A stretch of DNA of 32,778 nt, taken from assembly GCA_016793045.1 (NCBI GenBank), contig JAEUKZ010000240.1, positions 1 through 32,778 on the forward strand. The letters run 5' to 3'. Positions 3,943-29,117 of this stretch are shown here, in pieces. Below the pieces are notes generated by a model. That model did not search any database, had not been told where the DNA came from, and saw only the letters and a program-made list of their open reading frames with translations. The translations under genes were made by a program, and so were the position numbers. The first letter of the stretch is position 1, and each line of letters opens with the position of its first letter. The stretch is from Alphaproteobacteria bacterium (GTDB taxonomy: Bacteria; Pseudomonadota; Alphaproteobacteria; CACIAM-22H2).

Positions 3943-3947
3943 CGGGG

Positions 3948-5096: not shown

Positions 5097-5097
5097 G

Positions 5098-6297: not shown

Positions 6298-6313
6298 CGT
6301 CGGGTCTCCTGGA

Positions 6314-7981
6314 CTAGACGGCCGGCTGCCGGCGCCGCTCCTCCTCGCGCAGGGCAAGGCGCGACAGCTTGCCGACGGCGGTCCGCGGCAGAGCCTCGCG
6401 GATCTCGAGCGCCGCCGGCAGCTCGTGGCGGCCGAGCTTGTCCCGCAGGAACTGCCGCAGCGCGTCGAGCGTGAGCGGCGGCGCGCCCACGCGCAGCGTG
6501 ACGAAAGCCTTGGCCGCCTCGCCGCGATACGGATCGGCGACGCCGACCACCAGGGCCTCCGTGACGTCAGGGTGCTCGTAAATCGCCTGTTCGATCATCT
6601 GCGGATAGACGTTGAAGCCGCCTGAGATGATCATGTCCTTCTTGCGGTCGACCAGGAAGACGTATCCGTCCGCATCCATCCGCCCGACATCACCGGTGAG
6701 GAAGTAGACGCCGGCGAACGCGGCCGCACTCTCTTCCGGGCGGTTCCAGTAGCCTGCGGTCACGTTGCGCCCCTTGATCGCGATCTCGCCGACGGTGTCC
6801 GGCGGCAGGATGCGCCGTGGATCGTCGAGCGCCACGATGGCGATCTCGATTCCCGGCAGCGGCAGGCCGATCGACCCCGGCTTCGCCGGGCCCGCGACCG
6901 GACGATGGGTGCCGGCGGGCGACGTCTCGGTCATTCCCCAGCCGCCGCCGAGCCGCCGTCCCGTCAGCCGCTCGAAGCGCTGCGCCACTTCGAGCGGCAG
7001 CGGCGCGCCGCCGGAACTGCAGTAGCGCAGCGACGACAGGTCGCGCCGCTCGATGCCGGGATGATTGGCGAGCGCGATCCACATCGTCGGCACGCCCTGG
7101 AAGCACGTCGCGCGCCCGACCTCGATGTCATGAAGGGTCCGTTCGACATCGAAGCGCGTGCGCAGCAGGATGACATTGCCGTTGTCGAGGTGCCGCAGCA
7201 GGATCGTCGTCAGCCCGTAGATGTGGAACAGCGGCAGGACGCACAGCACGCGCTCTTTCCCGGGATGCGTAGCGCCCTGCCCGTTCAGCCATTCGTTGTA
7301 CATGCCGACCGCGACGGTCAGGTTGGCGTGGGTCAGCATCGCGCCCTTGGGCAGGCCGGTCGTGCCGCCGGTGTACTGCAGCAGCGCGAGATCGGAGGGG
7401 ACGACCGCCGGCCATGCGGCGGGCGGGACAGTGCCTTCGGTGAAGTCGGCGAGCCGTTGGAGCCGTGTGTCGAAGTCGATCTCCGCGCCCGGCTCCGCCG
7501 CGTCGCCCCACGCGGCCTCTTCGGCGACGATGACGCGATCGAGATGCCCGGCGTCGAGCAGGCGCAGCGCGGCCGGCAGCAGCTCGGCGCGGTCGCTGGC
7601 GATCATCATGCGCGCGCCGCTGTCGCGCAGCTTGTGGGCGAGCACGCGCTCGCCGTCGAGCGGGCTCAACATGACGACGCGCGCGCCGGTCCTCGCACCA
7701 GCGAAGAACGCGATCGGCAGGTCGGGCGTGTTGGGCAGGTGGATCGCCAGCGCGCCGCCGGGACCGATACCCGCGCGCAGCAACGCGGCGGCAAGACGGT
7801 CCACCGCGCGGCCGAGTTCCGCATAGAGGATCGCGCGACCGCGGAAGTCGATGGCGGTGCGCGGACCGTAGGCGCGGACGGCGGCGTCGAACAGCGCCGG
7901 AACGGTCGAAGCGGCGATCGGCGCGTCCCAGCGAACGCCGGCGGGGTAGGAACGCTCCCAGCTGAACGGCCGCTCGATCAT
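6314..7981 (-). CDS. AMP-forming acyl-CoA synthetase (class I adenylate-forming, fatty/organic acid CoA ligase)
   Basis: A 555-residue protein with all signature motifs of the family. These are the P-loop YTGGTTGLPKGAMLTH (residues about 203-218), GGWGMTETSPAG, TGDVGRMDADGYVFLVDRKKDMI with the hinge region, and the C-terminal catalytic lysine in PRTAVGKLS (Lys538). It activates a carboxylic acid with ATP and CoA through an acyl-adenylate. Its neighbours are another CoA ligase (27 nt upstream) and the paired acyl-CoA dehydrogenase (16 nt downstream), so the operon encodes activation followed by alpha,beta-oxidation. No signal peptide is visible. Chain length or aromatic specificity cannot be decided from the motifs. 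Confidence 0.94.
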   Translation of the reverse strand: MIERPFSWERSYPAGVRWDAPIAASTVPALFDAAVRAYGPRTAIDFRGRAILYAELGRAVDRLAAALLRAGIGPGGALAIHLPNTPDLPIAFFAGARTGARVVMLSPLDGERVLAHKLRDSGARMMIASDRAELLPAALRLLDAGHLDRVIVAEEAAWGDAAEPGAEIDFDTRLQRLADFTEGTVPPAAWPAVVPSDLALLQYTGGTTGLPKGAMLTHANLTVAVGMYNEWLNGQGATHPGKERVLCVLPLFHIYGLTTILLRHLDNGNVILLRTRFDVERTLHDIEVGRATCFQGVPTMWIALANHPGIERRDLSSLRYCSSGGAPLPLEVAQRFERLTGRRLGGGWGMTETSPAGTHRPVAGPAKPGSIGLPLPGIEIAIVALDDPRRILPPDTVGEIAIKGRNVTAGYWNRPEESAAAFAGVYFLTGDVGRMDADGYVFLVDRKKDMIISGGFNVYPQMIEQAIYEHPDVTEALVVGVADPYRGEAAKAFVTLRVGAPPLTLDALRQFLRDKLGRHELPAALEIREALPRTAVGKLSRLALREEERRRQPAV

Positions 7982-8008
7982 GGTCGTGCGGGAGGCATCG
8001 GGGCCGAT

Positions 8009-9622
8009 TCAGGCCGATCCGTAGAGGCGGCGAAGCTCGCTCTTCAGCAATTTGCCGGTTGCGGTGTGCGGCAGGTCGTCGACGACGACGACATCGTCCG
8101 GTACGCACCAGGACGCGACCTTGCCCTGGTAGAAGGCGCGCAGATCGGCCGCCGTGACCGCCTCGCCCTTTTCGAGCGCCACGATCAGCCGCGGCCGTTC
8201 GCCCCATTTGGCGTCAGGCCGTGCGATCACCGCCGCCTCGCGGACCGCCGGATGCGCGATGGCGATGTTCTCGAGCTCGATCGAGCTGATCCATTCGCCG
8301 CCGGACTTGATGACGTCTTTCACCCGGTCGACGATCTGGATGTTGCCGTCGGCATCGATCGTCGCGACGTCCCCGGTCTCGAACCAGCCCGCCTCCTGGT
8401 GCGACGGCACGACGTCCGAGTTGAAATAGCGGCCGCAGACCCACGGCCCGCGCACCTTGAGCGCGCCGAAGGCGGTGCCGTCCCACGGCAGTTCGTTGCC
8501 GGCGCCGTCGACGATCTTCATGTCGACGCCGAAGACCGGCCGGCCCTGCCTGGCGGCGAGCGCGTCGCGTTCCGCCGGGGGCAGATCGACCTGCTTGCGC
8601 TTCGGGTGGTTGGCGGTGCCGAGCGGGCTGATCTCGGTCATGCCCCAGGCGTGGACGACCTTGACCCCGTAGCGGTCGCGCAAGGTCTCGATCATCGACG
8701 GCGGGCAGGCCGAGCCGCCGATCACCACGCGCTCGAGCCTGCCCAGGCTCTTGCCGGACTGCGCGAGGTGATTGAGCACGCCCATCCACACCGTCGGCAC
8801 GCCGGCGCTGAACGTGACGCCTTCGTCGTAGATCAGGGCCTGCAGGCTCGCCCCGTCGAGATTGGGGCCGGGCATCACCAGCTTGGCGCCGGTCAGCGGC
8901 GCCGCATAGGGCAGGCCCCAGGCGTTGACGTGGAACATCGGCACGACCGGCAGCACCGCCTCGCGCGCCGACAGGCCGAACACGTCGATCAGGCTGACCG
9001 CGTAGGAATGCAGCACGGTCGAACGGTGGCTGTAGAGCACCCCGCGCGGGTTGCCCGTCGTGCCCGACGAATAGCAGAGCGACGACGCGGTGTTCTCGTC
9101 GAGCACCGGCCAGACGAACGCGTCGCGCTCCGCCTCGACCAGCGTCTCGTAGCACAGCGCGTTCGGCAGCGTGGTCCGCGGCATGTGCGCCGCGTCGGTC
9201 ATCACCACGAAGCCCTTCACGCCGGGCAGCTTGTCGGCGAGCGTTTCCAGCAGCGGCACGAAGGTGAGGTCGACGAAAAGCCAACGGTCCTGCGCGTGGT
9301 TGATGATGTAGACGATCTGCTCCGCGAACAGCCGGGGGTTGATCGTGTGGCAGATCATGCCGGAGCCGGAGATCGCGTAGTAGAGTTCGACATGGCGGTA
9401 GCCGTTCCAGGCGACGGTGCCGACGACGTCGCCCGGCGCGAGGCCGAGCCGCACGAGCGCGTTGGCGAGCCGGCGCGCGCGCGCCGCCGCGTCGGCATAG
9501 CCGTAGCGGTGCAGAGGGCCTTCGACGGTCTTCGAGACGATCTCCGTGTCGGCGTGATACTTCGCCGCGAAGTCGAGCAGCGCCGACACGTTCAACGGCA
9601 CGTCCATCATCAAGCCGCGCAT
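8009..9622 (-). CDS. Acyl-CoA synthetase of the 3-(methylthio)propionyl-CoA ligase (DmdB-like) group
   Basis: A 537-residue adenylate-forming ligase. The N-terminus [20 protein letters not shown], the segment [13 protein letters not shown]-x-x-HRY, and the AWNGYRH and [16 protein letters not shown] regions are typical of the group usually annotated as DmdB or medium/long-chain fatty-acid CoA ligase. The P-loop is [17 protein letters not shown] (residues 183-199), with [25 protein letters not shown] and the catalytic lysine in [10 protein letters not shown] (Lys524). The ATG at 9622 follows a strong GGGAGG site. The in-frame extension upstream to 9961 is a shadow of the selenoprotein gene. It is probably the first gene of the ligase/dehydrogenase operon, with the selenoprotein 94 nt upstream on the same strand. 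Whether methylthiopropionate is the substrate is not shown. Confidence 0.92.
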
Positions 9623-9716: not shown

Positions 9717-10802
9717 TCAGTTTTTGCGCGGCGCCGCGAAGCCGGGCAGGTCGGGCGGCGGATAATAGGGCTTGTCGCCGAGCGCCTGGACGCGCGCCCA
9801 GAATTCGGGACCGCCCGCCTTGCCGACCGCCTCGAGATCGGCAGCCTGCCGCCACATCGACCACGAGTCGGGGTGAAGCCGGCTCGCCGCCGCGAAATGC
9901 GCCGCCGCCTCCGCGGCGCGGCCGTTGCGCTGCAGCCAGACGGCGAGGCGGAACCGCGCATGCGCTTCGGCGATCTCCGGCGTCAGCTTCGGCAGCGCGC
10001 GCTTCACCGCGTCGGGCGGCAGAGCGTGCCTGCCCGTCGTCACCCAGTCCTTCACCGCCGCGAGATAGTCGGTGCGCGCCTGCTGGCGCGCCTGCGCGAG
10101 TTCCGGCGCGAGCGTGCGCGTCGTCATGTCCATGCGCCGGAAATGGTCGGTCGAGCCCGCGGTCTCGGGCGGGCGGACGATGCGGCCGGCCTCGTCGATC
10201 CACACCGCCTGCGGCACGTTGACCATGCCGTAGAGATCGGCGACGCGATGCTCGGTGTCGACCAGGCACCAATAGCTCGCCTTGGCCTGTTCGACCCAGG
10301 TCCGCGCGTGGTCGGCGCCGCGGCTTTCCTCCGCCACGGCGACCACCATGAAGTTCCGGTCTGCGAGGTCTGCGAAGAGTTGCTGCCACACGGGCAAGTC
10401 AAATCGGCAGCCTCACCACGAGGCCCAGGTGGAGAGAAAGACCTTTCTCCCGCGCAGTTCCGAAAGCCGGCGCGTCACCCCGGCGAAATCGGGCAATGCG
10501 AAGTCCGGCGCGGCGTCGCCGGCCAGCGCGTCGCGGCGGGCTGCCGCACCGGCGCCGAGCGCCCAAACCTGCCGGGCTTCGTCGTGGACGACCGGATTGC
10601 CGAGGCGGCGCCAGAAGCCGGCGACATCGACACGCCCGGCCGCGACCATCGCTGCCGGCAGAGGGACGCAGAGGTCGTCGCAGCACATGCCTTCGGGCTT
10701 GAGCACCCAGCCGGTCGCGCGTTCGGCATCGGCGGCGTCGAGCCACAGTCCGTCGTCGGTCGCGGCGGTCAGCTCGCCGCGGTCCGTGAGTATGGTCGCC
10801 AT
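9717..10802 (-). CDS. Thioredoxin-fold (ResA/AhpC-like) redox protein with in-frame UGA: probable selenoprotein
   Basis: The reading frame runs from ATG 10802 to the stop at 9717 with one internal TGA at 10413-10415. With the TGA read as selenocysteine it gives 361 residues, with Sec at position 130. Residues 1-90 contain a Cys-rich motif (EGMCCDDLCVPLP, Cys39/40/44). Residues about 93-220 are a redoxin domain (GDAAPDFALPDFAG, then KVFLSTWASW-U-GCRFDLPVW), and the C-terminal 120 residues are Ala-rich and helical. The TGA falls where thioredoxin-fold proteins carry the first active-site Cys after the WA-x-W strand; the second Cys is Cys132, giving U-G-C. Coding character and family pattern continue in the same frame on both sides, with no indel. 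Other genes here use TGA as a normal stop. The alternative is a nonsense-mutated pseudogene, made less likely by the exact position of the TGA and the stem after it. The start lacks a clear ribosome site. Confidence 0.82.
10382..10415 (-). promoter_or_regulatory. Candidate bacterial SECIS stem-loop immediately after the UGA
   Basis: In the minus-strand mRNA the UGA (10415-10413) is followed after one base by GCUGCC (10411-10406). That pairs perfectly with GGCAGC (10387-10382), leaving an 18-nt loop GAUUUGACUUGCCCGUGU. A stem starting right at the UGA with its loop about 16-20 nt downstream is where bacterial SECIS elements sit for SelB recognition. A G lies 18 nt after the UGA near the loop centre. 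The upper stem is weak in my hand folding and the usual G at the start of the apical loop is not clear, so this is a candidate. No selA/B/C/D gene lies in the window. Confidence 0.55.
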
Positions 10803-10881: not shown

Positions 10882-10915
10882 AAAACAAAGAAGGGTCGCC
10901 CGAGGGGCGACCCTT
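10882..10915 (-). terminator. Intrinsic terminator of the small transcription unit
   Basis: A perfect 10-bp stem, AAGGGTCGCC (10891-10900) and GGCGACCCTT (10906-10915), has a 5-nt loop. Read on the minus strand it is followed by CTTTGTTTTG, a U-rich tail in RNA. On the plus strand no T run follows, so it terminates minus-strand transcription. It lies 80 nt upstream of the selenoprotein start, so it either ends an independent small RNA or mRNA or acts as an attenuator in the selenoprotein leader. A second stem, GCGGTCA-3 nt-TGACCGC, lies just before it at 10931-10947. Confidence 0.8.
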
Positions 10916-10960
10916 CCCATGTCGAACCGCGCGGTCAACGTGACCGCCTGCACCCCTCGT

Positions 10961-11303: not shown

Positions 11304-12611
11304 TCACGGGCCGAGCAGGCGCGGCAGGGTCATCGCGATCGCCGGGAAGGCGGTGATCAGCGCGAGCAGGATCAGGTCGGCGGCGATGAACGGTGCCACC
11401 CCGCGATAGATCGTCTTCATCGCGATCTGCGGCGCGAGGCCGTGGATCAGGAAGACGATGATCCCGATCGGCGGAATGATCATGCCGAGCTCGATGACGA
11501 TGACGTTGATCACCCCCCACCAGATCTGCTCGTAGCCGAGCCGCTCGATGATCGGCAGCACCAGCGGCAGGGTGATCAGCATCGCCGCGATCTCGTCGAA
11601 CACCGCGCCGAGGATCAGGTAGGCGACGAGCAGCGCCGCGATGATGACCAGCGGCGGCAGCTGCAGCGCGCCGACCGCCTCGATCAGCGCATCGGGCACC
11701 CGCGCGACGGTGAGGAAATAGGTGAACACCGAGGCGCCGATGATGATGATGTAGATCATCGCCGTCGCCGCCGCGGTCTCGCGCAGGCCCCGCCACGCGC
11801 CCGCCCAGTTGAGCCGCCCCATGGCGAGCGCGAACGCGAAGGACAGCACCGCGGCGACCGACGCGGCCTCGCTGACCGTGAACACGCCGCTGTAGAGCCC
11901 GGCGAACACCGCCGCCATCAGCACCAGGACCGGTCCGGCGCGGCGCAGCGCCGCCAGCCGTTCGGGCCAGCCGACCGGCTCGCTCACCGGCGCGGCCGCG
12001 GGATTGCGCCACACCACCAGCTTGACCGCGAGCACGTTGAGCGCGATCGCCAGCAGCGCCGGCACGATCGCGGCGACGAACAGGTCGAGGATGAAGGTGC
12101 GCGAGACGATGCAGTAGAGCACCATCACGATCGAGGGCGGGATCAGCGCCTTGAGCGTGCCGCCGGCGGCGATCGTGCCGGCCGAGAACGCCGGCGCGTA
12201 GCCGCGCCGCAGCATCTCCGGCAGCGCCGCCTTGGCGAAGGTCGCCGCGGTCGCAGTCGACGAGCCGCACACCGCGCCGAACACCGCCGAGCCGCCGATC
12301 GTCGCGTAGGCGAGCCCGCCCCGGCGGTGGCCGAGAAAGGCGGCGGCGGCGGCGTAGATGTCGGCCGAGAAGCCCGCCGCGGTCGCGAAGGTTCCCATCA
12401 TCAGGAACAGCGGCACGCTGGCGAGGTCGACGCTCGACAGGATGCCCGACGGCTCCCCCGCCAGGATCGACAGCGCCGGCCCCCAGCCCGATTGCAGCGC
12501 GAAGCCGACGACGCCGACGACGATCATCGCGATGCCGATCGGCACCTGGATCAGGATCAGCGCGAACATCGCGGCCATGCCGAGCGCGCCGATGACGAGC
12601 GGGTCGCTCAT
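11304..12611 (-). CDS. TRAP transporter large permease (DctM type), second system
   Basis: A 435-residue polytopic membrane protein of standard DctM length. Family hallmarks are the N-terminal MFALILIQVPIGIAM helix, GAVCGSSTATAATFAKAALPEM (the SGSSxATAA-like region, residues about 110-130), ALIPPSIVMVLY, and the C-terminal LGMIIPPIG. It is the last gene of the operon that begins at 20294, 3 nt after the small permease. It presumably imports the substrate of the upstream dioxygenase/hydroxylase enzymes. It differs clearly in sequence from the other two DctM proteins of the window. Confidence 0.95.
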   Translation of the reverse strand: MSDPLVIGALGMAAMFALILIQVPIGIAMIVVGVVGFALQSGWGPALSILAGEPSGILSSVDLASVPLFLMMGTFATAAGFSADIYAAAAAFLGHRRGGLAYATIGGSAVFGAVCGSSTATAATFAKAALPEMLRRGYAPAFSAGTIAAGGTLKALIPPSIVMVLYCIVSRTFILDLFVAAIVPALLAIALNVLAVKLVVWRNPAAAPVSEPVGWPERLAALRRAGPVLVLMAAVFAGLYSGVFTVSEAASVAAVLSFAFALAMGRLNWAGAWRGLRETAAATAMIYIIIIGASVFTYFLTVARVPDALIEAVGALQLPPLVIIAALLVAYLILGAVFDEIAAMLITLPLVLPIIERLGYEQIWWGVINVIVIELGMIIPPIGIIVFLIHGLAPQIAMKTIYRGVAPFIAADLILLALITAFPAIAMTLPRLLGP

Positions 12612-12614
12612 CGT

Positions 12615-13133
12615 TCAGGCCCGCTCGTCGCCGCGGTCGGCGCCGGTGAGCCGGGCGATGTCGCGCAGCACCACCACCGCCTGCACCGGCACGCAGAGCG
12701 CGATCAGCACCGTCGTCGCCTGCCAGAACGGCGCCACCTTCCACTGCAGCACCCAGGTCGTCTGGCCGGCGCGCGCCAGGCCGTTGGTGAAGAGCTGGAA
12801 CTGCCACGCCATCGCCGCCATGACGACGAGCACGACGATGCCGGCGACGACGTTGCACAGGCGCGCGCCGAAGCGGCCGAACAGCGCTTGGGCGAATTCG
12901 ACCGTGATGTTGGCGCGCTCCGCCAGCACCACGGGCAGCGACGCCGCCACCGCGTTGGCGATGATGAGCGCGCCGACGTCGCGCACGCCGTCGATCGGCT
13001 GGTTGGCGAGCCAGCGCATCATCCCGTCGACGACGGTCATGCCCGCGAGCACCAGCAGCAGCACGAGGCCGAGAACGGCGGTCGCCCGCGTGAGGCGGAC
13101 GACCAGCCGTTCCAGCGTCAGGACAAGGTCCAT
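12615..13133 (-). CDS. TRAP transporter small permease (DctQ type), second system
   Basis: A 172-residue protein with four hydrophobic helices. The DctQ-type second segment reads VRDVGALIIANAVAASLPVVLAERANITVEF, here split by a polar ERANI loop, and a Trp-containing third loop (QTTWVLQWKVAPFW) follows. It lies between the receptor (7 nt upstream) and the large permease (3 nt downstream), and forms the inner-membrane complex with the latter. The C-terminus is short and charged (RLTGADRGDERA). Confidence 0.9.
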   Translation of the reverse strand: MDLVLTLERLVVRLTRATAVLGLVLLLVLAGMTVVDGMMRWLANQPIDGVRDVGALIIANAVAASLPVVLAERANITVEFAQALFGRFGARLCNVVAGIVVLVVMAAMAWQFQLFTNGLARAGQTTWVLQWKVAPFWQATTVLIALCVPVQAVVVLRDIARLTGADRGDERA

Positions 13134-13140
13134 CCGCCGC

Positions 13141-14163
13141 CTAGCTGCGGGTGGCGGCGCGCACGCGGGCGAGCTCGGCGTCGAGTTCGGCCTTCAGCTC
13201 GCGGTTGCGCGGGGTGCGCGCAACCCACTCGTCGCGCACCGCGGCGAGCGCCTGCTGCGCCGCCGCCTGCTCGGCGTCCGACGGCATGACGACGCGGTGG
13301 CGCGGGTTGTCGCGCAGCCGCTGCAGCAGCTCGTCGTTGTAGCGGCCGATCGAATCCGAGAAGACATTGCCGAGCCCCTCGCCCGCATGCTGGCGCAGGG
13401 CCGCCTGCGAGGCCGCCGGCAGCGCGTCGAAACGCCGCTTGCTCATCAGGATCGCCAGCGGCACGACGCCGAGGCGGATGAAGAAGTGGTTGTTGGTGAC
13501 GCGCTCCAGCCCGAAATCGAACAGCGGCGACATGTGCGAGGTGGCGCCGTCGATCGCGCGGCGCGTCATCGCCTCGGGGATCTCGGTCACCGGCATGCCG
13601 ACCGGCACCGCGCCGAGCGCCCTGATGCCGGCGCTTTCGATCGCGCTCGAGGCGCGGATCTTCTTGCCGCGCAGGTCGGCGATCGAATTGACCGGGAAGT
13701 TGGTGTGGATCGAATAGGGTGCCGTGCAGAACAGGCCGATGACGAAGAAATCGTCGTAGCCGCGCAGCACGTTGCGCTGGATCAGCCGCGAGGAGACCGT
13801 CGTCGCCTCGCGCAGGTTGTTGAAGACGCCCGGCAGCTCGAGCACCTCGTTCTCGGCGAAGCGCCCCGGCGTGTAGGACGGGATCACCCAGGCGATGTCG
13901 GCGACGCCGTCGAGCACCAGCTGCGGCTGCTGTGCCGGATTGCGGCCGAGCCCGCCATTGGGGAAGAACTCGACGGTCAGCGCATTGTTGGTCTGGCGCT
14001 GCACCGCCTCGGCATAGGGGCGCATGACGGTGAGGTAGGTGACCTCGCGGTCGGGCGTGAACACCGCCCACTTCACCTTGTCCTCGGCGCGCGCCGCACG
14101 CGTCCCGGCAAGCGTTGCGAGCGAAGCGGCCGTGGCGGTCGACAGGAAATCGCGTCTCTTCAT
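13141..14163 (-). CDS. TRAP transporter substrate-binding protein (DctP type), second system
   Basis: A 340-residue periplasmic receptor. The ATG at 14163 follows an AGGGAGG site and opens with MKRRDFLSTATAA, a clear twin-arginine (RRDFL) leader with cleavage near ARA-E (residue 27). A longer in-frame start at 14196 would displace this leader. The mature part has the DctP pattern: RPYAEAVQRQTNN near the start, the Arg-containing segment SIADLRGKKIRASSAIES, then GAVPVGMPVTEIPEAM. Gene order P-Q-M is conserved. It is the seventh gene of the operon, 29 nt after a CoA ligase, which links transport with CoA activation of the same compound (inference). Confidence 0.93.
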   Translation of the reverse strand: MKRRDFLSTATAASLATLAGTRAARAEDKVKWAVFTPDREVTYLTVMRPYAEAVQRQTNNALTVEFFPNGGLGRNPAQQPQLVLDGVADIAWVIPSYTPGRFAENEVLELPGVFNNLREATTVSSRLIQRNVLRGYDDFFVIGLFCTAPYSIHTNFPVNSIADLRGKKIRASSAIESAGIRALGAVPVGMPVTEIPEAMTRRAIDGATSHMSPLFDFGLERVTNNHFFIRLGVVPLAILMSKRRFDALPAASQAALRQHAGEGLGNVFSDSIGRYNDELLQRLRDNPRHRVVMPSDAEQAAAQQALAAVRDEWVARTPRNRELKAELDAELARVRAATRS

Positions 14164-14192
14164 CGGTTCCTCCCTGGTTGTCGTTCGATCGG

Positions 14193-15731
14193 TCATTGCG
14201 GCCGCTGGTCGAGACTATACTCGACCACCGCGCCGTAGCGGGCCTTGGCTTCGCGCCGCAGCACCTTGCCGACGGGGCTTTTCGGCAGATCGCGGGCGAA
14301 ATGGATCGTCTTGGGCGCCTTGACCGGCCCCAGCGCCTCGCGCGCGAAGGCGATCAACGCCTCCGGCGTCGTCGCGGCGCCGTCGCGCAACTGCACCGCC
14401 GCCTCGACCCGCTCGCCCCATTTCGCATCGGGCACGCCGAAGACGATGCATTCGTGGACCGCGGGATGCTGGGCGAGCCGCGCCTCGACGTCGCTCGGGT
14501 AGACGTTGAAGCCGCCGGAGATCACGACGTCGCGCAGCCGGTCCTTGATGAAGAGGAAGCCGCGCTCGTCGAGCGCGCCGACATCGCCGGTGTGCAGCCA
14601 GCCGTCGACCAGCGTCGCCGCGGTGACATCGGGCATGTCGAGATAGCCCGACATCAGCAGGTCGCCGCGCGCGACGATTTCGCCGGTCTCGCCCGGCGGC
14701 AGCAGGCGGCCGTCGCCGTCCATGATGCCGATTTCGGTGAGCGCGGTGGCGCGGCCGCACGAGGCGAGGTTGGCATCGTCCATGAAGTCGCCGGCGCGCA
14801 TCGCCGCGAGCAGCATCGGCGCCTCGGTCTGGCCGTAGCAGGCCTCGAAGCCGCCGCGGAAGACGCGCCGCGCCTCGCGGATGCGCTCCGCCGGCATCGG
14901 CGCCGCACCCCAGATGAGATGACGCAGTTCGGGGAAGCGCATGGTCTCGACCCCGGGATGGCCGAGCATGGCGTAGATCACCGTCGGCGGCAGGAACACG
15001 GTCGAGACGCCGCGTTCGACGAAGGCTTCGAGGATCTCCGGCGGCTTGATGCGCTCGCGCAGGATGTGCCGGCCGCCCACCGCGAGGATCGGCAGCACCA
15101 TGCAAGAGGTGCCGTGGGTGAGCGGTGCCGCGCAGAGATTGCAGTCGTCGCGGGTGAAGCCGTAGGTGAGCAGGAACGAGGCGACCAGCGTGTTGATGCA
15201 GCGATAGGACTGCAGCACGCCCTTGGGCCGGCCGCTCGACCCGCCGGTGAACTTGACGCCCTGGATGTCGGCGAGCGTGCGCTGCGGCCAGGCCGGGCGC
15301 TTGCCGCGGTGGCGCGCGATGGCGCCCGCCAGCGTGTCGGCCGCGTCGCTCGCGGCCGCGGTGCGCGCGAGCAGACGCGGCGTGCCGGCGAGGTCGATGC
15401 GCTCGAGGCAGGCTTCGTCGACGATCACCATCGATGGGCGCGTCAGCGCCACGATCGCGTCGAGCTCCGCCTTGGCGTTGCGCGGGTTGAGCGGCACCCA
15501 GGTTGCCCCGGCGGCGTAGACCGCGAGCATCGCGACCATGTGCTGGAGGTTGTTCTCGGCGCAGATGCCGACACGGTCGCCGGCGCCGACGCCGCGATCC
15601 TGCAGCGCCGACGCCGCCGCCTCGACCTCCGCCACCAGCGCGCGATAGGTCAGCGCACGCGCATCGTCCTCGGCGGCGATGCCGCCGGGATTGAGCGCGA
15701 GGCCGCGGTAGAGAAAGCCGATCGGGAACAT
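14193..15731 (-). CDS. AMP-forming CoA ligase in the nine-gene operon
   Basis: A 512-residue adenylate-forming enzyme. The P-loop is FTGGSSGRPKGVLQSY (residues 161-176), with Ser-Ser where most members have Thr-Thr. Other motifs are ACYGQTEAPM, LHTGDVGALDERGFLFIKDRLRDVVISGG, and the catalytic Lys489 in SPVGKVLRRE. It converts a carboxylic acid to its CoA thioester. Its ATG overlaps the stop of the FAD hydroxylase gene (TGATG), a sign of translational coupling. An in-frame extension to 17546 is only a shadow of the hydroxylase and lyase genes. The substrate is probably the acid made or imported by the operon; benzoate-, coumarate- and aliphatic-type substrates are all possible. Confidence 0.92.
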   Translation of the reverse strand: MFPIGFLYRGLALNPGGIAAEDDARALTYRALVAEVEAAASALQDRGVGAGDRVGICAENNLQHMVAMLAVYAAGATWVPLNPRNAKAELDAIVALTRPSMVIVDEACLERIDLAGTPRLLARTAAASDAADTLAGAIARHRGKRPAWPQRTLADIQGVKFTGGSSGRPKGVLQSYRCINTLVASFLLTYGFTRDDCNLCAAPLTHGTSCMVLPILAVGGRHILRERIKPPEILEAFVERGVSTVFLPPTVIYAMLGHPGVETMRFPELRHLIWGAAPMPAERIREARRVFRGGFEACYGQTEAPMLLAAMRAGDFMDDANLASCGRATALTEIGIMDGDGRLLPPGETGEIVARGDLLMSGYLDMPDVTAATLVDGWLHTGDVGALDERGFLFIKDRLRDVVISGGFNVYPSDVEARLAQHPAVHECIVFGVPDAKWGERVEAAVQLRDGAATTPEALIAFAREALGPVKAPKTIHFARDLPKSPVGKVLRREAKARYGAVVEYSLDQRPQ

Positions 15732-17299
15732 CAGGCGAGCATCCCGCGCAGGGTTCGTGCGGCCGCCATCGCGCCGTCCGCCTCCGCCGCCGCGGCGACG
15801 TAGCGGTCCGGCCGCACGAAGGCGATCGCGGCTCGGTTGGCGGCGAACCAGGCGCCCAGCCGCCCGGTGACGTCGCCGACCGCCAGCGTGTCGGTGTTGA
15901 GGCGCAGTTCGCCGCCGCCGCGCACCGCGACGAAGCGCGCGCCGGCGGCGCGCCAGGGTTCCGCCTCCGCGCCGAGCATCGAGGCGGGATCGAGTTCGTT
16001 GCCGGCGATGACGAAGCCGGAGCCCACGGCGTCGTCCCACAGCCGCTCCGCGCCGCCGGCAGCGACGCGCGGCTGGATGAACATGCGGCCGACCGCCTGG
16101 TCCTCGGTGCCGCGGCCCGCGAAGAAGCCGGCACCGTAGCGCGGCGGCGGCTTGAAGCGCATGTTGAAGACGTAGTCGCGCGCGCGCTTGTGGCCGGCGA
16201 CGCCGTGCAGGAGGCGGTCGCGCGCCCAGGCGCCCACCCGGCTCGTCGTCATGATGATGCGGCCGATGCGGCGCGACAGGTCGATCATCCGGCGCACATG
16301 GTCGCGCCGTTCGGCCTCGTAGCTGTCGAGCAGCGTGTCGCCGGCGCGCCCGGTTGCCGCAAGGGCGAGCTTCCAGGCGAGGTTCTGCGCATCGCGGATG
16401 CCGCTGTTGAGGCCCTGGCCGGCGAAGGGCGGCATCAGATGCGCGGCATCGCCGGCGAGGAAGGCGCGGCCGACGCGGAAGCGCTCGGCGAGCCGCGCGT
16501 GGAAGGTATAGACGCGCTTGCGCACGATGCTGATCTTCGCCGGATCGGGAACGAAGCGGCCGAGCAGCCGCACGATCATCGCCGGGTCCAGCAGTTCGGC
16601 CTCCGTCTCGCCGGGCAGCAGCATGAACTCCCAGCGGCGGAAGCCGCCGGGCAGGTGGACGCAGACGGTCGGCCGGCGCGGGTCGCAGTACATGCCGGTG
16701 AAGGGGTGGTCGAGCGGATCGTCGGCGATGTCGATGACCAGCCATTGCTGCGCGAAGGTGTCGCCGTCGAGCGCCACGCCGAGCTGCGCGCGCAACGACG
16801 AGCGCCCGCCGTCGCAGCCGACGACGTAGTCGGCCGCGAGCGTCGTCAGCGTGCCGGACGGGTCGCGCAGGACGAGGCGCGCGTGCCCGCCGCTGTCCTC
16901 CAGCGCCTCGAACTGCCAGCCGAGCCGGACGTCGACATGCGCGAAGCGTCCGGCCCCGGCGCGCAGCACCGCTTCGAGCTCGGGCTGAAGAAACGTGTTG
17001 CGTCGGCGCCAGCCGAACTCGGTCGTCGGCGGATCGATCTCGGCGATCGGCCGCCAGCGCGAATCGAAGAAGCGCATCGGCGGGCCTTCGACGAGCCTGG
17101 GCCGTATCGCCTCGGCGAGGCCGATCGCCTGCAGCGAGCGCAGCGCCTCGTCGTCGATGCCGACCGCGCGCGGATAGTCGACGATCGCGCTCTCGCGCTC
17201 GATCAGGCAGGTGCGAATGCCGGCCTGGCCGAGGAAATTGGCGAGCGTGAACCCGACCGGGCCGCCGCCGACGATCGCGACCGCCGCGTCCGCGCTCAT
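15731..17299 (-). CDS. FAD-dependent aromatic hydroxylase (MhpA/PheA-type flavoprotein monooxygenase)
   Basis: A 522-residue class A flavoprotein monooxygenase. It has the Rossmann motif AIVGGGPVGFTLA (residues 8-20), the DG motif GCDGGRSSLR (161-170) and the FAD-ribityl GD motif FLAGDAAHLMPPFAGQGLN (280-298). The C-terminal 120 residues form the usual thioredoxin-like extension. Such enzymes hydroxylate phenolic rings with NAD(P)H and O2; the closest type by pattern is 3-(3-hydroxyphenyl)propionate hydroxylase. The regulator at 20437 resembles MhpR, which fits. The ATG overlaps the preceding stop as ATGA. No other mhp genes (extradiol ring-cleavage enzyme, hydrolase, hydratase, aldolase) are present, so the pathway is not the classical one. 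Confidence 0.9.
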   Translation of the reverse strand: MSADAAVAIVGGGPVGFTLANFLGQAGIRTCLIERESAIVDYPRAVGIDDEALRSLQAIGLAEAIRPRLVEGPPMRFFDSRWRPIAEIDPPTTEFGWRRRNTFLQPELEAVLRAGAGRFAHVDVRLGWQFEALEDSGGHARLVLRDPSGTLTTLAADYVVGCDGGRSSLRAQLGVALDGDTFAQQWLVIDIADDPLDHPFTGMYCDPRRPTVCVHLPGGFRRWEFMLLPGETEAELLDPAMIVRLLGRFVPDPAKISIVRKRVYTFHARLAERFRVGRAFLAGDAAHLMPPFAGQGLNSGIRDAQNLAWKLALAATGRAGDTLLDSYEAERRDHVRRMIDLSRRIGRIIMTTSRVGAWARDRLLHGVAGHKRARDYVFNMRFKPPPRYGAGFFAGRGTEDQAVGRMFIQPRVAAGGAERLWDDAVGSGFVIAGNELDPASMLGAEAEPWRAAGARFVAVRGGGELRLNTDTLAVGDVTGRLGAWFAANRAAIAFVRPDRYVAAAAEADGAMAAARTLRGMLA

Positions 17300-18054
17300 G
17301 GCGCCTCGGTCCCGAACTGCCGCTCGACCGCGGTCCAGACGTCGCCGGCGATCGGGCTGGCGCGTTCCTCCGCGACGTGGGCGAGCAGGCCGGCCGCGCG
17401 CGCGACCACGGCGACGCCGCGCATGATCTCCGCTTCCAGCCCGATGCCGCGCAGCAGGGCGGCGCTGGCCCCGGTCGCGTTGATGGTGACGTGGCGGCCG
17501 GCCGCCGCATCGACCGCGCGGCCGAGCAGGCGCAGCGCCGCGACATGCGCGCGCCCCACCCCGGCCTTGCCGGCGAGCGCGAGCAGGCGGGGCGTGCGCG
17601 GATCGTCGGGCTTGTGGAGGTTGTGGCCGAAACCCGGGACCGGCCGGCGCGCCCGGCGATGCTCGGCGGCGATCGCGCGGGCCAGCGCCGCGCGCTGCTT
17701 CGCCGGTGCCGCGACGATGCGGTCGAGCAGCCGCGCGCAACCCTCCATCGTGCCGACGAAGCGGTCGCCGATGCCGAGCAGCCCGGCGGCGATGGCGCCC
17801 TGCACCGAATCGGGCGCGCCGTGCAGCGTCATGCGTGCGGCGATCGCGCTCGGCGTCAGGCCGTGCTCCATCAGCGTCACCAGCACGGCATCGAGCACCG
17901 CCACCGTCGCCGCCGAGGCCCTGCGGCCGGTGACGTGGTGATAGAGCAGCGCGGTGAAGCCGACCTTGCCGATGAGTTCGCCGACGAGGTCGCGCCCGCG
18001 CAGCGCGATGGCATCCGGCCCGTAGTGGCAGAGGCGCGAGCGCGCGGCGTTCAT
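17296..18054 (-). CDS. Citryl-CoA lyase / short citrate-synthase-like protein
   Basis: A 252-residue protein of the citrate-synthase superfamily, about 60% of full length as is usual for citryl-CoA lyases. It keeps His64 (LMEHGLTPSA), the QGAIAAGLLG segment, and GFGHNLHKPDDPRTPRL (His144), which carry the two catalytic histidines and the CoA-binding region. The place where family members usually show Asp (N-x-D-G) reads INATG, with Thr194. It may therefore run a different reaction, such as a citryl-CoA-like C-C cleavage or condensation, or be impaired. It overlaps both neighbours by ATGA junctions. The start 18054 removes a 65-residue shadow extension. The substrate is presumably a hydroxy-acyl-CoA produced in this operon (inference). 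Confidence 0.82.
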   Translation of the reverse strand: MNAARSRLCHYGPDAIALRGRDLVGELIGKVGFTALLYHHVTGRRASAATVAVLDAVLVTLMEHGLTPSAIAARMTLHGAPDSVQGAIAAGLLGIGDRFVGTMEGCARLLDRIVAAPAKQRAALARAIAAEHRRARRPVPGFGHNLHKPDDPRTPRLLALAGKAGVGRAHVAALRLLGRAVDAAAGRHVTINATGASAALLRGIGLEAEIMRGVAVVARAAGLLAHVAEERASPIAGDVWTAVERQFGTEAP

Positions 18055-18635
18055 CGGGCGGCGCGCGCCGCCTTGCGCTTCGGCTTGGCCGCGGCCGCGC
18101 CGGCAAGCCGGCGCTTGAAGTCGCGCCGCCACGCGGCGGCCGGCTGCAGCGAGCGGTCGCCCGCGTGGCGCTTGCGCGTGCGCGCGCGGATGGCGCGGTC
18201 GCTGAGCGCGAAGTCGAGCGGCTCGGCGAGCGGCTGCGAGACGTACCACGGCGCATCGACGAACATCTCGATGCGGTTGCCCTCGGGATCGCGGAAATAG
18301 ACCGCCCAGGCGTTGCCGTGGTCGATCGGGGTGATGTCGCGCACGCCCGCCGTGGCGGCGATGCGGCGGTGCATGCGGCGCAGATCGGCGAGGCTCGGCA
18401 GGCGGAACGAGATCTGGTTGAGCGAGGTCTCCGCGGGATTGCCGGTGCGCCCGGCGACCAGCACCACCTCGTGGTGTTCGCGCGGATTGCGCGACAGGAA
18501 GACGAGATCGCGGCCGCGCAGCACGCCGCGGTCGGTCACCGCGAAGCCGAAGACCTTGCGGTAGAAGCGCTCCATCGTCCGGATGTCGAAGACGTTGAGG
18601 CCGGCATGGCTGAAGGCGAAGCGCGGGATGGTCAT
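18051..18635 (-). CDS. VOC-superfamily protein (glyoxalase / extradiol-dioxygenase fold) with basic C-terminal tail
   Basis: A 194-residue single VOC unit. The first beta-alpha module starts FSHAGLNVFDIRTMERFYRKVFGF (His10 as metal ligand). The second ends FRDPEGNRIEMFVDAPWYVSQP, with Glu123 as ligand. The usual His in the L-N-H-I-A-F strand is Gln74 (LNQISF), so the metal site is not a standard His-His-Glu. The phrase APWYVSQPLAEPLDFALSD is shared with proteins annotated as catechol-type dioxygenases. The last 45 residues are Arg/Lys/Ala-rich and resemble no catalytic domain. The start at 18635 has GAGGGG just upstream; a start at 18647 overlapping the GST stop is the alternative. In context it may be a ring-cleavage or isomerising enzyme. 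Confidence 0.85.
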   Translation of the reverse strand: MTIPRFAFSHAGLNVFDIRTMERFYRKVFGFAVTDRGVLRGRDLVFLSRNPREHHEVVLVAGRTGNPAETSLNQISFRLPSLADLRRMHRRIAATAGVRDITPIDHGNAWAVYFRDPEGNRIEMFVDAPWYVSQPLAEPLDFALSDRAIRARTRKRHAGDRSLQPAAAWRRDFKRRLAGAAAAKPKRKAARAAR

Positions 18636-18643
18636 GGGTCCCC

Positions 18644-19459
18644 TCATGCCGCCGGGCGGACCAGCGACGGGTTGTTCGCGGGCGGGAAGCCGAAGGCCGA
18701 GCCGGTCCAGCTCGGCCGCGCGCGCACGCGGTCGAGGAAGGCGCCGATGCGCGGAAAGCGCTGCGGCAGATCCTCGACGCCGATGCGCGGGAACATGTCG
18801 AGCCGCGGCGCGAGCGCGATGTCGGCGAGGCCGAAGCGGCCGCCGACCAGCCAGGTGCGGCCGTCGGCGAGCCGCGCCTCCATCAGCGCCAGGCGGTCGA
18901 ACAGGATCGCGCGGCGTTCGGCGATCAGCGCCTCGTCGGGCGGCTCCATCAGCACCTTGAGCGCGTGGCGCAGGTGGTATTCGGCGCGGGTGTTGCGGCC
19001 GATCCGCTCCGCCAGCGCATCCGGCGTCATGCCGCTCGCCTGGGCGCGCTTCTTCATGTGGGTTTCGTAGATCGCGTCGCGGAACGGCTTTGCCCAGTCG
19101 AGCTCGTAGGCCATCCACATCCGCGCCTGCGCCTGCTCGTGCGCGTCGGCCGGCATCAGCCGCGGCGCCGGGAACACCGCGTCGAGATACTCGTTGATGA
19201 CGTTCGATTCGTGGATCGCGCGGCCCTCGTGCACCAGCGTCGGCACGATGCCGCTCGGGTTGAGGCGCAGATACCAGTCCTGCTTCTGCTCCATCGCGCC
19301 GAGGTCGAGCCAGCGGATCTCGAACGGCACGCCCTTTTCCAGCAGGCACATGCGCACGCGCCGGCCGCACGGGCTGGTCGGCGAGTCGTAGAGGATGACG
19401 CCCCTGCCGCTGCCGAGCGGCGCGGCGGCGAAATCCGGCCGGCTGGGAAACTCAGGCAT
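18644..19459 (-). CDS. Glutathione S-transferase family protein
   Basis: A 271-residue protein. The N-terminal thioredoxin-fold domain (residues about 19-100) contains SPTSPCGRRVRMCLLEKG, the cis-Pro motif NPSGIVPTLVHEG, and the glutathione-gamma-Glu site HESNVINEYLD. A helical C-terminal domain follows (about 110-260). It binds glutathione and may open or isomerise an intermediate, as GSTs do in aromatic pathways (maleylpyruvate isomerase, beta-etherase or dehalogenase roles are all possible). Its start overlaps the end of the PhyH gene by 8 nt and it precedes the VOC gene, so it is embedded in the operon. The exact reaction is not decidable here. Confidence 0.9.
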   Translation of the reverse strand: MPEFPSRPDFAAAPLGSGRGVILYDSPTSPCGRRVRMCLLEKGVPFEIRWLDLGAMEQKQDWYLRLNPSGIVPTLVHEGRAIHESNVINEYLDAVFPAPRLMPADAHEQAQARMWMAYELDWAKPFRDAIYETHMKKRAQASGMTPDALAERIGRNTRAEYHLRHALKVLMEPPDEALIAERRAILFDRLALMEARLADGRTWLVGGRFGLADIALAPRLDMFPRIGVEDLPQRFPRIGAFLDRVRARPSWTGSAFGFPPANNPSLVRPAA

Positions 19460-20294
19460 GCGCGCGCGCGCGCTCCCACGCGATCGGGAACACGCCGTCG
19501 AGCACCAGCGGATCGCCGGCCTTGAGCGTCGCCTCCGGCGCGCCCTCGACGCGCATCACCGCGGGGCGCGGGTCCCAGCGCGCGTCCTTGCCCGCGTAGC
19601 GCACCGAGATCGCCGCGCGCCGCCGGCCGAGCGGATTGCCGCCGGCGCCGTGGACCGTGAGCGGATGGTGGCAGATGACGTCGCCGGGCTCGCAGCTCCA
19701 CGACAGGAAGCGGTAGCGCGGGTCGCCCTTCATCGTGGAGAAGTCCGGGCAGGGCTCGAGCTTCGAATCGCTGAAGCGCGGGTCCTCGTCGGGCGTCGCG
19801 GCGCGATAGAACTTGTTCCACTTGTGCGAACCGGCGATGTACTCGAGGCCGCTGCCCTCGACCGAAACCGGCGTCAGCGCCACCCACAGCGAGACGATGT
19901 CGCCGCCGAGCGCCGGCCAGAACGGCAGGTCGTGGTGCCACTGCGTCACCTCCCTCGTGCCCGGCTCCTTGACGAAGGCCTGGTCGTAGAACAGCGACAC
20001 GCGGTCCGCCCCCATCAGCGCCGCGGCGACCTCGGGCAGCGGCGATTCGAGCGCGAAGGCGCGGAAATCCGGGTCCCAGCGCCACATGAACACGTTCATG
20101 TGGAAGCGGCCGGGACTGCCGGCCTTGGTCGCCTCGCGCGCGCGGTTGCCGGGATTGGCGAGCAGGCGGTCGACCGCGGCGTTCATGCGCGCGACCCATT
20201 CGGCATCGAAGACGCGGCGCAGGCAGATCGCGCCGTCTTCCTGGAAGCGCGCGATGTCCTCGCGGCCGACCGGATTCAGGGGATGTCGGTTCAC
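19452..20294 (-). CDS. Phytanoyl-CoA dioxygenase-family Fe(II)/2-oxoglutarate oxygenase
   Basis: A 280-residue PhyH-type enzyme, first gene of the nine-gene operon. The Fe(II) triad is visible as His120-x-Asp122 (TQWHHDLPFWPAL) and the distal His215 (LTVHGAGGN). Arg226 or Arg232 (GRRRAAISVRYAG) is available for 2-oxoglutarate. It hydroxylates an organic acid or CoA ester using O2 and 2-oxoglutarate. The start is GTG at 20294, set by a GGAGGGAG site 7 nt upstream; no better ATG exists. It diverges from the MhpR-like regulator, with the palindrome at 20385-20403 about 90 nt upstream. Confidence 0.9.
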   Translation of the reverse strand: MNRHPLNPVGREDIARFQEDGAICLRRVFDAEWVARMNAAVDRLLANPGNRAREATKAGSPGRFHMNVFMWRWDPDFRAFALESPLPEVAAALMGADRVSLFYDQAFVKEPGTREVTQWHHDLPFWPALGGDIVSLWVALTPVSVEGSGLEYIAGSHKWNKFYRAATPDEDPRFSDSKLEPCPDFSTMKGDPRYRFLSWSCEPGDVICHHPLTVHGAGGNPLGRRRAAISVRYAGKDARWDPRPAVMRVEGAPEATLKAGDPLVLDGVFPIAWERARAHA

Positions 20295-20384: not shown

Positions 20385-20403
20385 ATGTCCACGCTGTGGA
20401 CAT
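20385..20403. promoter_or_regulatory. Operator-like palindrome in the divergent promoter region
   Basis: A perfect 8-bp inverted repeat with a 3-nt spacer (ATGTCCAC-GCT-GTGGACAT) lies in the 142-nt gap between the PhyH operon and the MhpR-like IclR gene. A further half-site TGGACA follows at 20418-20423. Position and symmetry fit an IclR-family operator controlling both directions. It is 34 nt upstream of the regulator ATG. Confidence 0.65.
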
Positions 20404-22876: not shown

Positions 22877-23656
22877 ATGACGACGACTGTTCTCGCCGGG
22901 CGAAACGCGCTGGTGACCGGGGCCGGCACCGGGATCGGCCGCGCGATCGCGCGCGCGCTGGCCGGGGCCGGGGCGCGTGTGTTCGTGACCGACATCGATG
23001 CCCTGGCTGCCGAGCGCGCGGCGGCGGAGATCGGCCCCGCGGCGGGCGCCGCGCGGCTCGACGTCACCAGCGCCGCCGAGACCGACGCGGTGTTCGCCGC
23101 CGCGATCGACGCGTTCGGGCGGCTCGACATCGTCTGCGCCAATGCCGGCATCTCGACCATGCAGCGCGTCGTCGACCTGACCGAGGCCGAATGGGACGCC
23201 AACATGGCGGTGAACGCCAAGGGCGTGTTCCTGACCGACCGCGCGGCGGTGCGCCACTTCCTCGCCCGCGGCGGCGGCGGCGCCATCGTCAACACCGCCT
23301 CGCTCGCCGGCAAGGTCGGCGCGGCGCTGCTCGCCCACTATTCGGCGAGCAAGTTCGCGGTGGTCGGGTTCACCCAGGCGCTGGCGCGCGAGGTCGCGCG
23401 CGATGCGATCCGCGTCAACTGCGTGTGCCCCGGCTTCGTGCGCACCTCGATGCAGGCGCGCGAGCTCGAGTGGGAGGCGAAGCTGCGCGGCATGACGCCG
23501 GACGCGGTGCGCGCCGAATATGTTTCACTGACGCCGCTCGGCCGGCTCGAGGAGCCGGAAGACGTCGCCGATGCGGTCGTGTTCCTCGCCAGCGACGCGG
23601 CGCGGTTCATGACCGGGCAGGCGGTGCTCGTCGACGGCGGGATCTACATGGGATGA
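22877..23656 (+). CDS. SDR-family NAD-dependent oxidoreductase
   Basis: A 259-residue classical short-chain dehydrogenase. The nucleotide motif is TGAGTGIGRAIA (residues 14-25), with NAG at 89-91 and the catalytic Ser142, Tyr155-x-x-x-Lys159 (ASLAG, then HYSASKF). Asp39/Asp41 at the end of the second strand (VTDID) argues for NAD rather than NADP. Substrates of the family are alcohols, polyols or sugars. It starts an operon with a BtpA-family gene (7 nt downstream) and an FGGY kinase. It is therefore plausibly a polyol or sugar dehydrogenase making the ketose that is then phosphorylated (inference). Confidence 0.93.
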   Translation: MTTTVLAGRNALVTGAGTGIGRAIARALAGAGARVFVTDIDALAAERAAAEIGPAAGAARLDVTSAAETDAVFAAAIDAFGRLDIVCANAGISTMQRVVDLTEAEWDANMAVNAKGVFLTDRAAVRHFLARGGGGAIVNTASLAGKVGAALLAHYSASKFAVVGFTQALAREVARDAIRVNCVCPGFVRTSMQARELEWEAKLRGMTPDAVRAEYVSLTPLGRLEEPEDVADAVVFLASDAARFMTGQAVLVDGGIYMG

Positions 23657-23663
23657 CCAGCAC

Positions 23664-24488
23664 ATGACGACCTTCACGCCTTCCCCGCCGCTCGTCTTCG
23701 AGGGCGGCGCCAAGCCGATCATCGCGATGGCGCATCTCGGGCCCCTGCCCGGCGCGCCCGGCTTCGACCGCGCCGGCGGCATGGCGAAGCTGATCGACGG
23801 CGTGGCGCGCGACGTCGAGGCGCTGCAGGCCGGCGGCGTCGACGCGATCATGTTCGGCAACGAAGGCGACCGGCCCTATGTGCTGAAGGCGGCGCCCGAG
23901 GGCCTTGCCGCGATGGCGTCGATCGTCGCGGCGCTGCGCCCGGCGCTGCGCGTGCCCTTCGGCGTCAACTATCTGTGGGACCCCGTGGCGACCGTCGCCC
24001 TCGCGGTCGCATCGGGCGCCGCCTTCGCGCGCGAGGTCTTCACCGGCGTCTATGCCAGCGACATGGGGCTGTGGCAGCCCGACTGCGCCGGCGCGCTGCG
24101 CCTGCGGGCCGATCTCGGCCGGCCCGACCTCAAGCTGCTGTTCAACGTCAACGCGGAGTTCGCCGCCCCGCTCGACACGCGGCCGACCGAGAAGCGCGCC
24201 GAGAGCGTGGTGTTTTCCTCGCTCGCCGACGCGATCTGCGTTTCCGGCGCGATCACCGGCCAGGCGGTCGACCAGTCCGAGCTCGCGCGGGTGAAGAGGG
24301 CGATCGGCGCGGTGCCGGTGCTCGCCAACACCGGCGTGCGCATCGACAACGTCGAGACCATCCTCGCCACCGCCGACGGCTGCGTGATCGGCACGCACTT
24401 CAAGGTCGACGGCAACACCTGGAACGCGGTCGACCGCGCGCGCGTGGCGCGCTTCATGGACAAGGTGCGGCACTTGCGCGGGCGCTGA
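23664..24488 (+). CDS. BtpA/SgcQ-family TIM-barrel protein
   Basis: A 274-residue single-domain protein matching the BtpA family. It has an N-terminal IIAMAHLGPLPGAPGF, DVEALQAGGVDAIMFGNEGDRPY (residues about 52-74), a VNYLWDP strand, and the C-terminal VLANTGVRIDNVETILATADGCVIGTHFKVDG. The last segment looks like a TIM-barrel phosphate-binding end. The family was named for photosystem I biogenesis, but SgcQ-type members occur in sugar operons. Its position between an SDR and an FGGY kinase (2-nt gap to the latter) supports action on a phosphorylated sugar, perhaps as an aldolase or epimerase. That role is inference; the biochemistry of these members is not established to my knowledge. Confidence 0.88.
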   Translation: MTTFTPSPPLVFEGGAKPIIAMAHLGPLPGAPGFDRAGGMAKLIDGVARDVEALQAGGVDAIMFGNEGDRPYVLKAAPEGLAAMASIVAALRPALRVPFGVNYLWDPVATVALAVASGAAFAREVFTGVYASDMGLWQPDCAGALRLRADLGRPDLKLLFNVNAEFAAPLDTRPTEKRAESVVFSSLADAICVSGAITGQAVDQSELARVKRAIGAVPVLANTGVRIDNVETILATADGCVIGTHFKVDGNTWNAVDRARVARFMDKVRHLRGR

Positions 24489-24490
24489 GC

Positions 24491-26014: not shown

Positions 26015-26018
26015 TTCA

Positions 26019-26034
26019 TGGCACGACGCTTGCT
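26019..26034 (+). promoter_or_regulatory. Sigma-54 (-24/-12) promoter of the third TRAP operon
   Basis: TGGCACG-ACGC-TTGCT matches the core sigma-54 consensus TGGCACG-N4-TTGCW at every specified base. It lies 79 nt before the receptor ATG, leaving a leader of about 65-70 nt from the expected start near 26045. Such promoters require an enhancer-binding activator; none is encoded in the window. An overlapping dyad, CGCTTG-5 nt-CAAGCG (26027-26043), may be coincidental. Confidence 0.75.
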
Positions 26035-26112
26035 TGCCAAGCGGGCGGCAATGTGGCCGAATTCCAGGGCGCCGGGACTTTTGCGGCGCTGCGTTCCGTC
26101 CGGGGGATCAAC

Positions 26113-27171: not shown

Positions 27172-27196
27172 GCCGCGCCGCGACGGACGCCGCATC

Positions 27197-29113: not shown

Positions 29114-29117
29114 CCCC

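Follow-up and report, generated by a model that had tools for sequence, protein, structure and literature searches.

A nine-gene alphaproteobacterial operon combining an MhpA-type hydroxylase and a one-domain VOC protein with a CoA ligase and a citrate-synthase-fold protein

The operon, its regulator and its importer

Contig JAEUKZ010000240.1 of an alphaproteobacterium (32,778 bases, 70% GC; hereafter the window), from a genome of 5.3 Mb in 462 contigs, carries a nine-gene operon that runs from 20294 to 11304 on the minus strand (Table 1). The operon assembles known parts in a new combination and can in part be recognized as aromatic catabolism: a flavin-dependent aromatic hydroxylase and a vicinal-oxygen-chelate (VOC) protein are interleaved with a coenzyme A (CoA) ligase and a protein annotated as citryl-CoA lyase, and the same genes are joined to an importer.

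We recomputed coordinates, strands and overlaps. The PhyH and glutathione S-transferase (GST) reading frames overlap by 8 nt, and an 8-nt gap separates GST from VOC. The VOC/lyase and lyase/hydroxylase junctions are each an ATGA overlap, and at the hydroxylase/ligase junction (TGATG) one nucleotide is shared. Gaps of 29 nt (ligase/DctP), 7 nt (DctP/DctQ) and 3 nt (DctQ/DctM) follow. All nine reading frames have a coding-type third-position GC of 0.92-0.97, and every protein scored above the curated Pfam cut-off of its own family. Operon structure and family assignments are read directly from the sequence. The recomputed coordinates and profile scores confirmed a preliminary description of nine same-strand genes with start/stop overlaps and a divergent MhpR-type regulator; they also support its proposal that the genes are transcribed as one unit together with a dedicated importer and a regulator.

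Table 1. Genes and candidate regulatory features of the operon
Feature	Position	Strand	Basis
PhyH-family Fe(II)/2-oxoglutarate oxygenase, 280 aa	19452..20294	-	Pfam PF05721, 114.7 bits
Glutathione S-transferase-like protein (GST), 271 aa	18644..19459	-	Pfam GST_N/GST_C
One-domain VOC protein, type-I extradiol-dioxygenase-like, 194 aa	18051..18635	-	Pfam PF00903
Citrate-synthase-fold putative CoA-ester lyase, NCBI label "citryl-CoA lyase", 252 aa	17296..18054	-	NF004868
MhpA-type FAD aromatic hydroxylase, 522 aa	15731..17299	-	NF004831
AMP-forming acyl/aryl-CoA ligase, 512 aa	14193..15731	-	Pfam PF00501/PF13193
DctP, TRAP solute-binding protein	13141..14163	-	Pfam PF03480, NF037995
DctQ, TRAP small permease	12615..13133	-	Pfam PF04290
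DctM, TRAP large permease	11304..12611	-	Pfam PF06808, TIGR00786
Divergent IclR regulator, MhpR-type, 262 aa	20437..21225	+	NF007341
Candidate regulator-binding palindrome	20385..20403	.	Repeat search
Terminator-like hairpin	10888..10918	-	14-pair stem

The IclR regulator passes the NCBIfam MhpR-type equivalog (PRK09834, NF007341) with 273.5 bits against a cut-off of 269. The 142-bp gap between its gene and the PhyH gene contains a perfect 8+8 palindrome, ATGTCCAC-GCT-GTGGACAT, which has no other match in the window at up to 3 mismatches (0.03 expected); judged by its position, it is a plausible candidate operator. A hairpin with 9 G-C pairs in its stem lies 3' of DctM. Across the whole scan, terminator-like sites were in no excess over shuffled sequence, which makes this hairpin weak as a candidate terminator.

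The TRAP transporter is complete, with DctP, DctQ and DctM all detected by Pfam and NCBIfam profiles. DctP scored 82.8 against a cut-off of 50 (NF037995), has 5i5p and 7nr2 as solved relatives and carries a GKKIR motif at residue 166; in TRAP solute-binding proteins, the arginine of this motif binds the substrate carboxylate. DctQ scored 45.2 against 28.3 (PF04290) and DctM 276.7 against 268 (TIGR00786). Three separate TRAP systems are found within this one 33-kb contig, at 86-2986 (-), 11304-14163 (-) and about 25756-29113 (+), and their DctP proteins are mutually distant (25-34% identity in partial alignments).

The hydroxylase, the VOC protein and the accessory enzymes

The hydroxylase scored 604.4 bits against the cut-off of 546 for the NCBIfam MhpA-type equivalog (NF004831), carries the GxGxxG, DGxRS and GD motifs and is 43-47% identical to enterobacterial MhpA from E. 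coli and Klebsiella replicons. This family prefers acids whose side chain is intact. Given the two equivalog assignments, MhpA type for the hydroxylase and MhpR type for the regulator, and what is known of these families, the likeliest substrate class would be a hydroxyphenyl-alkanoate or a related meta-hydroxy aromatic acid; the first suggestion for this locus, an aromatic or hydroxylated acid, thus gains support from the hydroxylase.

The same two genes are what the operon shares with the mhp pathway for 3-(3-hydroxyphenyl)propionate (MhpR-ABCDFE). Unlike that pathway, the operon has no MhpB (LigB type), MhpC, MhpD, MhpE or MhpF detectable with Pfam or NCBIfam. The VOC gene stands in the place of MhpB, a TRAP system replaces MhpT, and a CoA ligase, a citrate-synthase-fold protein, a GST and a PhyH protein are added. 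The genome does encode two LigB-family proteins, on contigs other than this one.

The VOC protein resembles the second domain of catechol 2,3-dioxygenase (XylE; profile score 41.8 bits) and was aligned to 1mpy. Its H54, H106 and Y113 correspond to the XylE catalytic residues His199, His246 and Tyr255. Of the metal triad H153/H214/E265, it has H10 and E123 and carries Gln74 at the H214 position, which leaves the 2-His-1-Glu set incomplete. Across 39 VOC sequences, H153, H199, H246 and Y255 are kept in all and E265 in 36, while the H214 position is Gln in 26 (including ours), His in 10 and Glu in 3. A single domain of about 190 residues and the conserved H153/H199/H246/Y255/E265 positions suggest a resemblance of these proteins to the one-domain type-I extradiol dioxygenases BphC2, BphC3 and BphC6 (PMC4250580), from which the frequent Gln at His214 would set them apart. 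A lineage of extradiol dioxygenases with a single domain, for the most part uncharacterized, is described in AromaDeg (PMC4250580). Opening of an aromatic ring is the best reading of the VOC protein, though a tentative one given the altered ligand. The Gln prompted us to consider an isomerase of the methylmalonyl-CoA-epimerase kind. This is disfavored, as the protein retains the extradiol catalytic residues and the ligand position is His in 10 of the 39 sequences.

Gene neighborhoods are consistent with a ring-opening role. In Paraburkholderia, Allorhizobium and two Variovorax records, relatives of the VOC gene adjoin genes for MhpA-like hydroxylases, fumarylacetoacetate hydrolase (FAH) family proteins and IclR regulators. 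In Streptomyces, a relative is the first gene of a meta-cleavage set that further encodes a hydrolase, a hydratase and an aldolase. In Caballeronia, one is followed downstream by genes for a porin, an MFS carrier, two hydrolases, MhpD, acetaldehyde dehydrogenase and DmpG, at a locus that then continues into a complete mhp set, MhpB included. Other relatives are solitary or stand beside a GST (loci L186-L188). At locus L217 (G326:C137, 7559-10132), a hydroxylase 45% identical to ours directly precedes a VOC gene with two glyoxalase-type stretches, which further supports the hydroxylase-VOC pairing. Open frames of 421-471 aa with two VOC matches each, apparently two-domain (duplicated) forms, occur on G229:C26, G318:C13, G395:C2 and G124:C5.

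The GST gives a long alignment to LigF (4xt0) and falls below every NCBIfam equivalog cut-off (FzlA, 82 of 300; maiA, 72.5 of 171). We rejected a maleylpyruvate/maleylacetoacetate isomerase on the maiA score. At E<=1e-40, the 385 genomes of the class contained one relative besides that of the genome itself, and the 364 genomes of the phylum contained none. A hydroxylase, a ring-cleavage candidate and a GST within one operon recall the gentisate/maleylpyruvate pathways; the operon differs from these in lacking an FAH hydrolase and a cupin dioxygenase, and in its GST scoring below maiA. In the PhyH protein, the HxD motif (H120-D122), the distal H215 and the 2-oxoglutarate-binding R226 are all present, and its Pfam score of 114.7 compares with a cut-off of 22. 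Its closest solved relative is MysH (9pze/9c9n, E about 3e-40). We set aside a mycosporine-related role, since the two proteins are alike only at the level of the family and no other part of the operon hints at mycosporines.

The ligase-lyase pair

The lyase scored 292.6 bits against a cut-off of 193 (NF004868). Its AlphaFold2 model (pLDDT 95) has as its best PDB match 6hxp, the citryl-CoA lyase (Ccl) of Hydrogenobacter, with a TM score of 0.81 at 27% identity. We aligned 118 homologues with 6hxp and one citrate synthase, whose numbering we use. The equivalents of His238 and His320 are retained, the latter in 117 of the homologues. At the His274 position, His occurs in 2 of 118, the residue being mostly Phe, Ile, Val or Leu. 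The Asp375 position is Thr, Asn, Ser, Gln or Lys, and never Asp or Glu. 6hxp keeps both His and Asp at these positions. The family has conserved residues of its own: G101 and H147 are invariant or nearly so, and T102 and T194 are mostly kept. The early label "citryl-CoA-lyase-like" therefore holds for the fold and fails for the active site, where two of three catalytic residues of citryl-CoA lyase are missing, and by these alignments the protein is mislabeled or re-tooled.

Because these residues are gone, cleavage of a CoA thioester by this protein is not established. The corresponding Asp of ATP-citrate lyase (D1026) has a debated role, as a general base or an allosteric residue (PMC10115795); the loss of His274 and Asp375 thus weakens the label and does not by itself exclude C-C cleavage. 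As the enol-stabilizing His and the acid/base Asp are both absent, the protein might instead be no lyase at all but a condensing enzyme, or one that hydrolyzes, isomerizes or decarboxylates CoA esters. The near-complete absence of His274, the invariable absence of an acid at position 375 and the newly conserved G101, H147, T102 and T194 all fit such a role, whereas the retained His238 and His320, the citryl-CoA lyase fold and a CoA-activating enzyme as the usual partner speak for a lyase. We regard a non-lyase as unlikely. No functional test of the family was found in the literature searched.

The CoA-activating partner is encoded directly upstream and on the same strand, as an AMP-forming ligase, in 46 of the 72 lyase loci with at least 1.5 kb of upstream sequence; these belong to the best 80 named loci among the matches listed, many of them on contigs shorter than the requested flank. 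Several further loci have a CoA-transferase nearby. The ligase of the window, in which the P-loop (FTGGSSGRPKG), YGQTE, TGD and GKVLRRE (C-terminal Lys) motifs are present, is 44-64% identical to lyase-adjoining ligases elsewhere and 28-32% identical to the other two ligases of the window. The arrangement resembles the two-step citrate cleavage of Hydrogenobacter, in which citryl-CoA synthetase and Ccl likewise form a CoA-activating enzyme and a stand-alone citrate-synthase-fold lyase. It differs in that the activating enzyme here is AMP-forming, not a citryl-CoA synthetase, and in the absence of the His274 and Asp375 equivalents.

Several of these pairs lie in other metabolic settings. In Cupriavidus necator N-1 (plasmid pBB2, L045) and in Pseudomonas (L088 and L117) the pair occurs in linkage with maleylacetate reductase, and the C. 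necator locus further has an intradiol dioxygenase and two genes for YciI; this is another ring-cleavage context for the pair. The genome that carries our operon has a second lyase homologue (40%) at L071 (G000:C362:15000-34900); a CoA-transferase gene (45%) comes after it, and the surroundings include a TRAP system and an intradiol dioxygenase. In Achromobacter, Bordetella and Advenella the pair stands beside SDR oxidoreductases and importers with no ring-cleavage gene detected, so that it can act on an acid without ring opening. Ligase and lyase might accordingly come first in our operon as well and work on the side chain: an acid resembling hydroxyphenyl-3-hydroxypropionate would be converted to its CoA ester and split into acetyl-CoA and a hydroxybenzaldehyde or ketone, and hydroxylase and VOC protein would then process the ring. 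The TRAP system and AMP-ligase fit an imported aryl-alkyl acid. Nevertheless, the operon includes no aldehyde dehydrogenase, the hydroxylase family favors acids with an intact side chain, and the gene order favors neither sequence of steps. We consider it improbable that the side chain is attacked first.

Gene order, a possible joint pathway and the rest of the contig

We searched for a second complete cluster with the lyase in 61 and 385 genomes, the VOC protein in 23 and 385, the GST in 385 and 364 and the hydroxylase in 385, together with the best 80 lyase loci. None was found in these genome sets and loci, and nucleotide similarity on plasmids was limited to fragments. In 0 of the 80 loci did a hydroxylase, VOC, GST or PhyH gene lie within 10 kb of the lyase at E<=1e-15, and no examined VOC or hydroxylase neighborhood contained the lyase. 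Given the restriction to the best 80 loci and the short contigs, the joint operon may well occur a second time in some other genome. Conservation of the gene set, raised as a check in the preliminary description, thus fails for the nine genes and holds for two pairs, hydroxylase/VOC and ligase/lyase, which recur in the sequences of other genomes.

The genes in the window are ordered VOC-lyase-hydroxylase-ligase, and each pair is thereby split by a member of the other. Two unrelated pathways might share one transcript and importer, with hydroxylase, VOC protein and GST serving an aromatic acid and ligase, lyase and PhyH an aliphatic hydroxy acid. The modules are indeed separable at every other locus examined, with the other module at none of the best 80 lyase loci, and the genome's second lyase homologue stands with a CoA-transferase, an intradiol dioxygenase and a TRAP system (L071, above). 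Interleaving and translational coupling would be unexpected of unrelated modules, and we judge such an arrangement unlikely. The interleaved pairs and their start/stop overlaps speak instead for a joint pathway that came together in this lineage.

Such a pathway might run as follows. (i) Under the MhpR-type regulator, which would control a single transcript, the TRAP system would import a (meta-)hydroxylated aromatic carboxylate. (ii) The hydroxylase would convert it to a catechol by ortho-hydroxylation, and (iii) the VOC protein would open the ring in extradiol fashion; for steps (i) to (iii) the basis is homology and gene neighborhood. (iv) The GST may isomerize the ring-fission product with glutathione or process it otherwise, and PhyH may add one further hydroxyl, both as accessory steps. 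(v) The ligase would convert an acid intermediate to its CoA thioester, and (vi) the lyase would split a C-C bond, leaving an oxo compound and an acyl-CoA that is probably acetyl-CoA. Ligase and lyase would thus occupy the place of MhpC or the fumarylacetoacetate-type hydrolase of related clusters. We infer the order of the steps, the CoA steps with their C-C cleavage, the roles of GST and PhyH and the substrate. The scheme as a whole, with CoA activation and C-C cleavage in lieu of a C-C hydrolase, is tentative, and we place it a little short of even.

Several observations weigh against this scheme. The hydroxylase is nearer to Caballeronia MhpA (42%), whose partner is a LigB-type MhpB, than to the VOC-linked hydroxylases (35-39%). 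The VOC protein has Gln at one metal-ligand position, and the lyase is without His274 and Asp375. No MhpC, MhpD or FAH gene was found in the operon, and the full set in no other genome examined. Nothing in the evidence fixes the substrate.

The preliminary description had seen no recognized catabolic pathway in this gene set. Literature searches on the combined genes, on a part played by citryl-CoA lyase in the catabolism of aromatics and on 3-hydroxyphenylpropionate clusters linked to TRAP systems found no fit and no paper describing the set, and a study of polycyclic aromatic hydrocarbon degradation in Sagittula does not mention citryl-CoA lyase (PMC11705938). The mixture itself is not random, as both pairs recur elsewhere.

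In many proteobacterial groups, a gene annotated as citryl-CoA lyase stands beside a CoA ligase and mostly lacks the residues that define its chemistry. A broader proposal, which we find somewhat doubtful, is that this subfamily is a distinct and widespread enzyme of the citrate synthase fold whose active site has been rebuilt and which forms, with an AMP-ligase, a portable "activate and split" unit, here replacing the C-C hydrolase of an aromatic pathway. If true, a common annotation would be corrected and a CoA-dependent route for aromatic ring-fission products added. By tying the pair to recognizable aromatic-degradation enzymes, the operon suggests substrates for assay.

Elsewhere in the window, an IclR regulator, two acyl-CoA dehydrogenases and two AMP-ligases (3118-9529) adjoin the first TRAP system in a beta-oxidation-like cluster. 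SDR, BtpA-family, FGGY-kinase, TRAP, Asp/Glu racemase and amidohydrolase genes (22877-31348) probably form another catabolic cluster. At 9717-10802 (-), an in-frame TGA within a WASW-U-GC motif marks a selenocysteine-containing ResA-like protein (NF041054, 311.4 of 300 bits), whose gene is cut in two by ordinary open reading frame calling; the genome encodes tRNA-Sec (78 bits) and SelB (420.8 of 242 bits).

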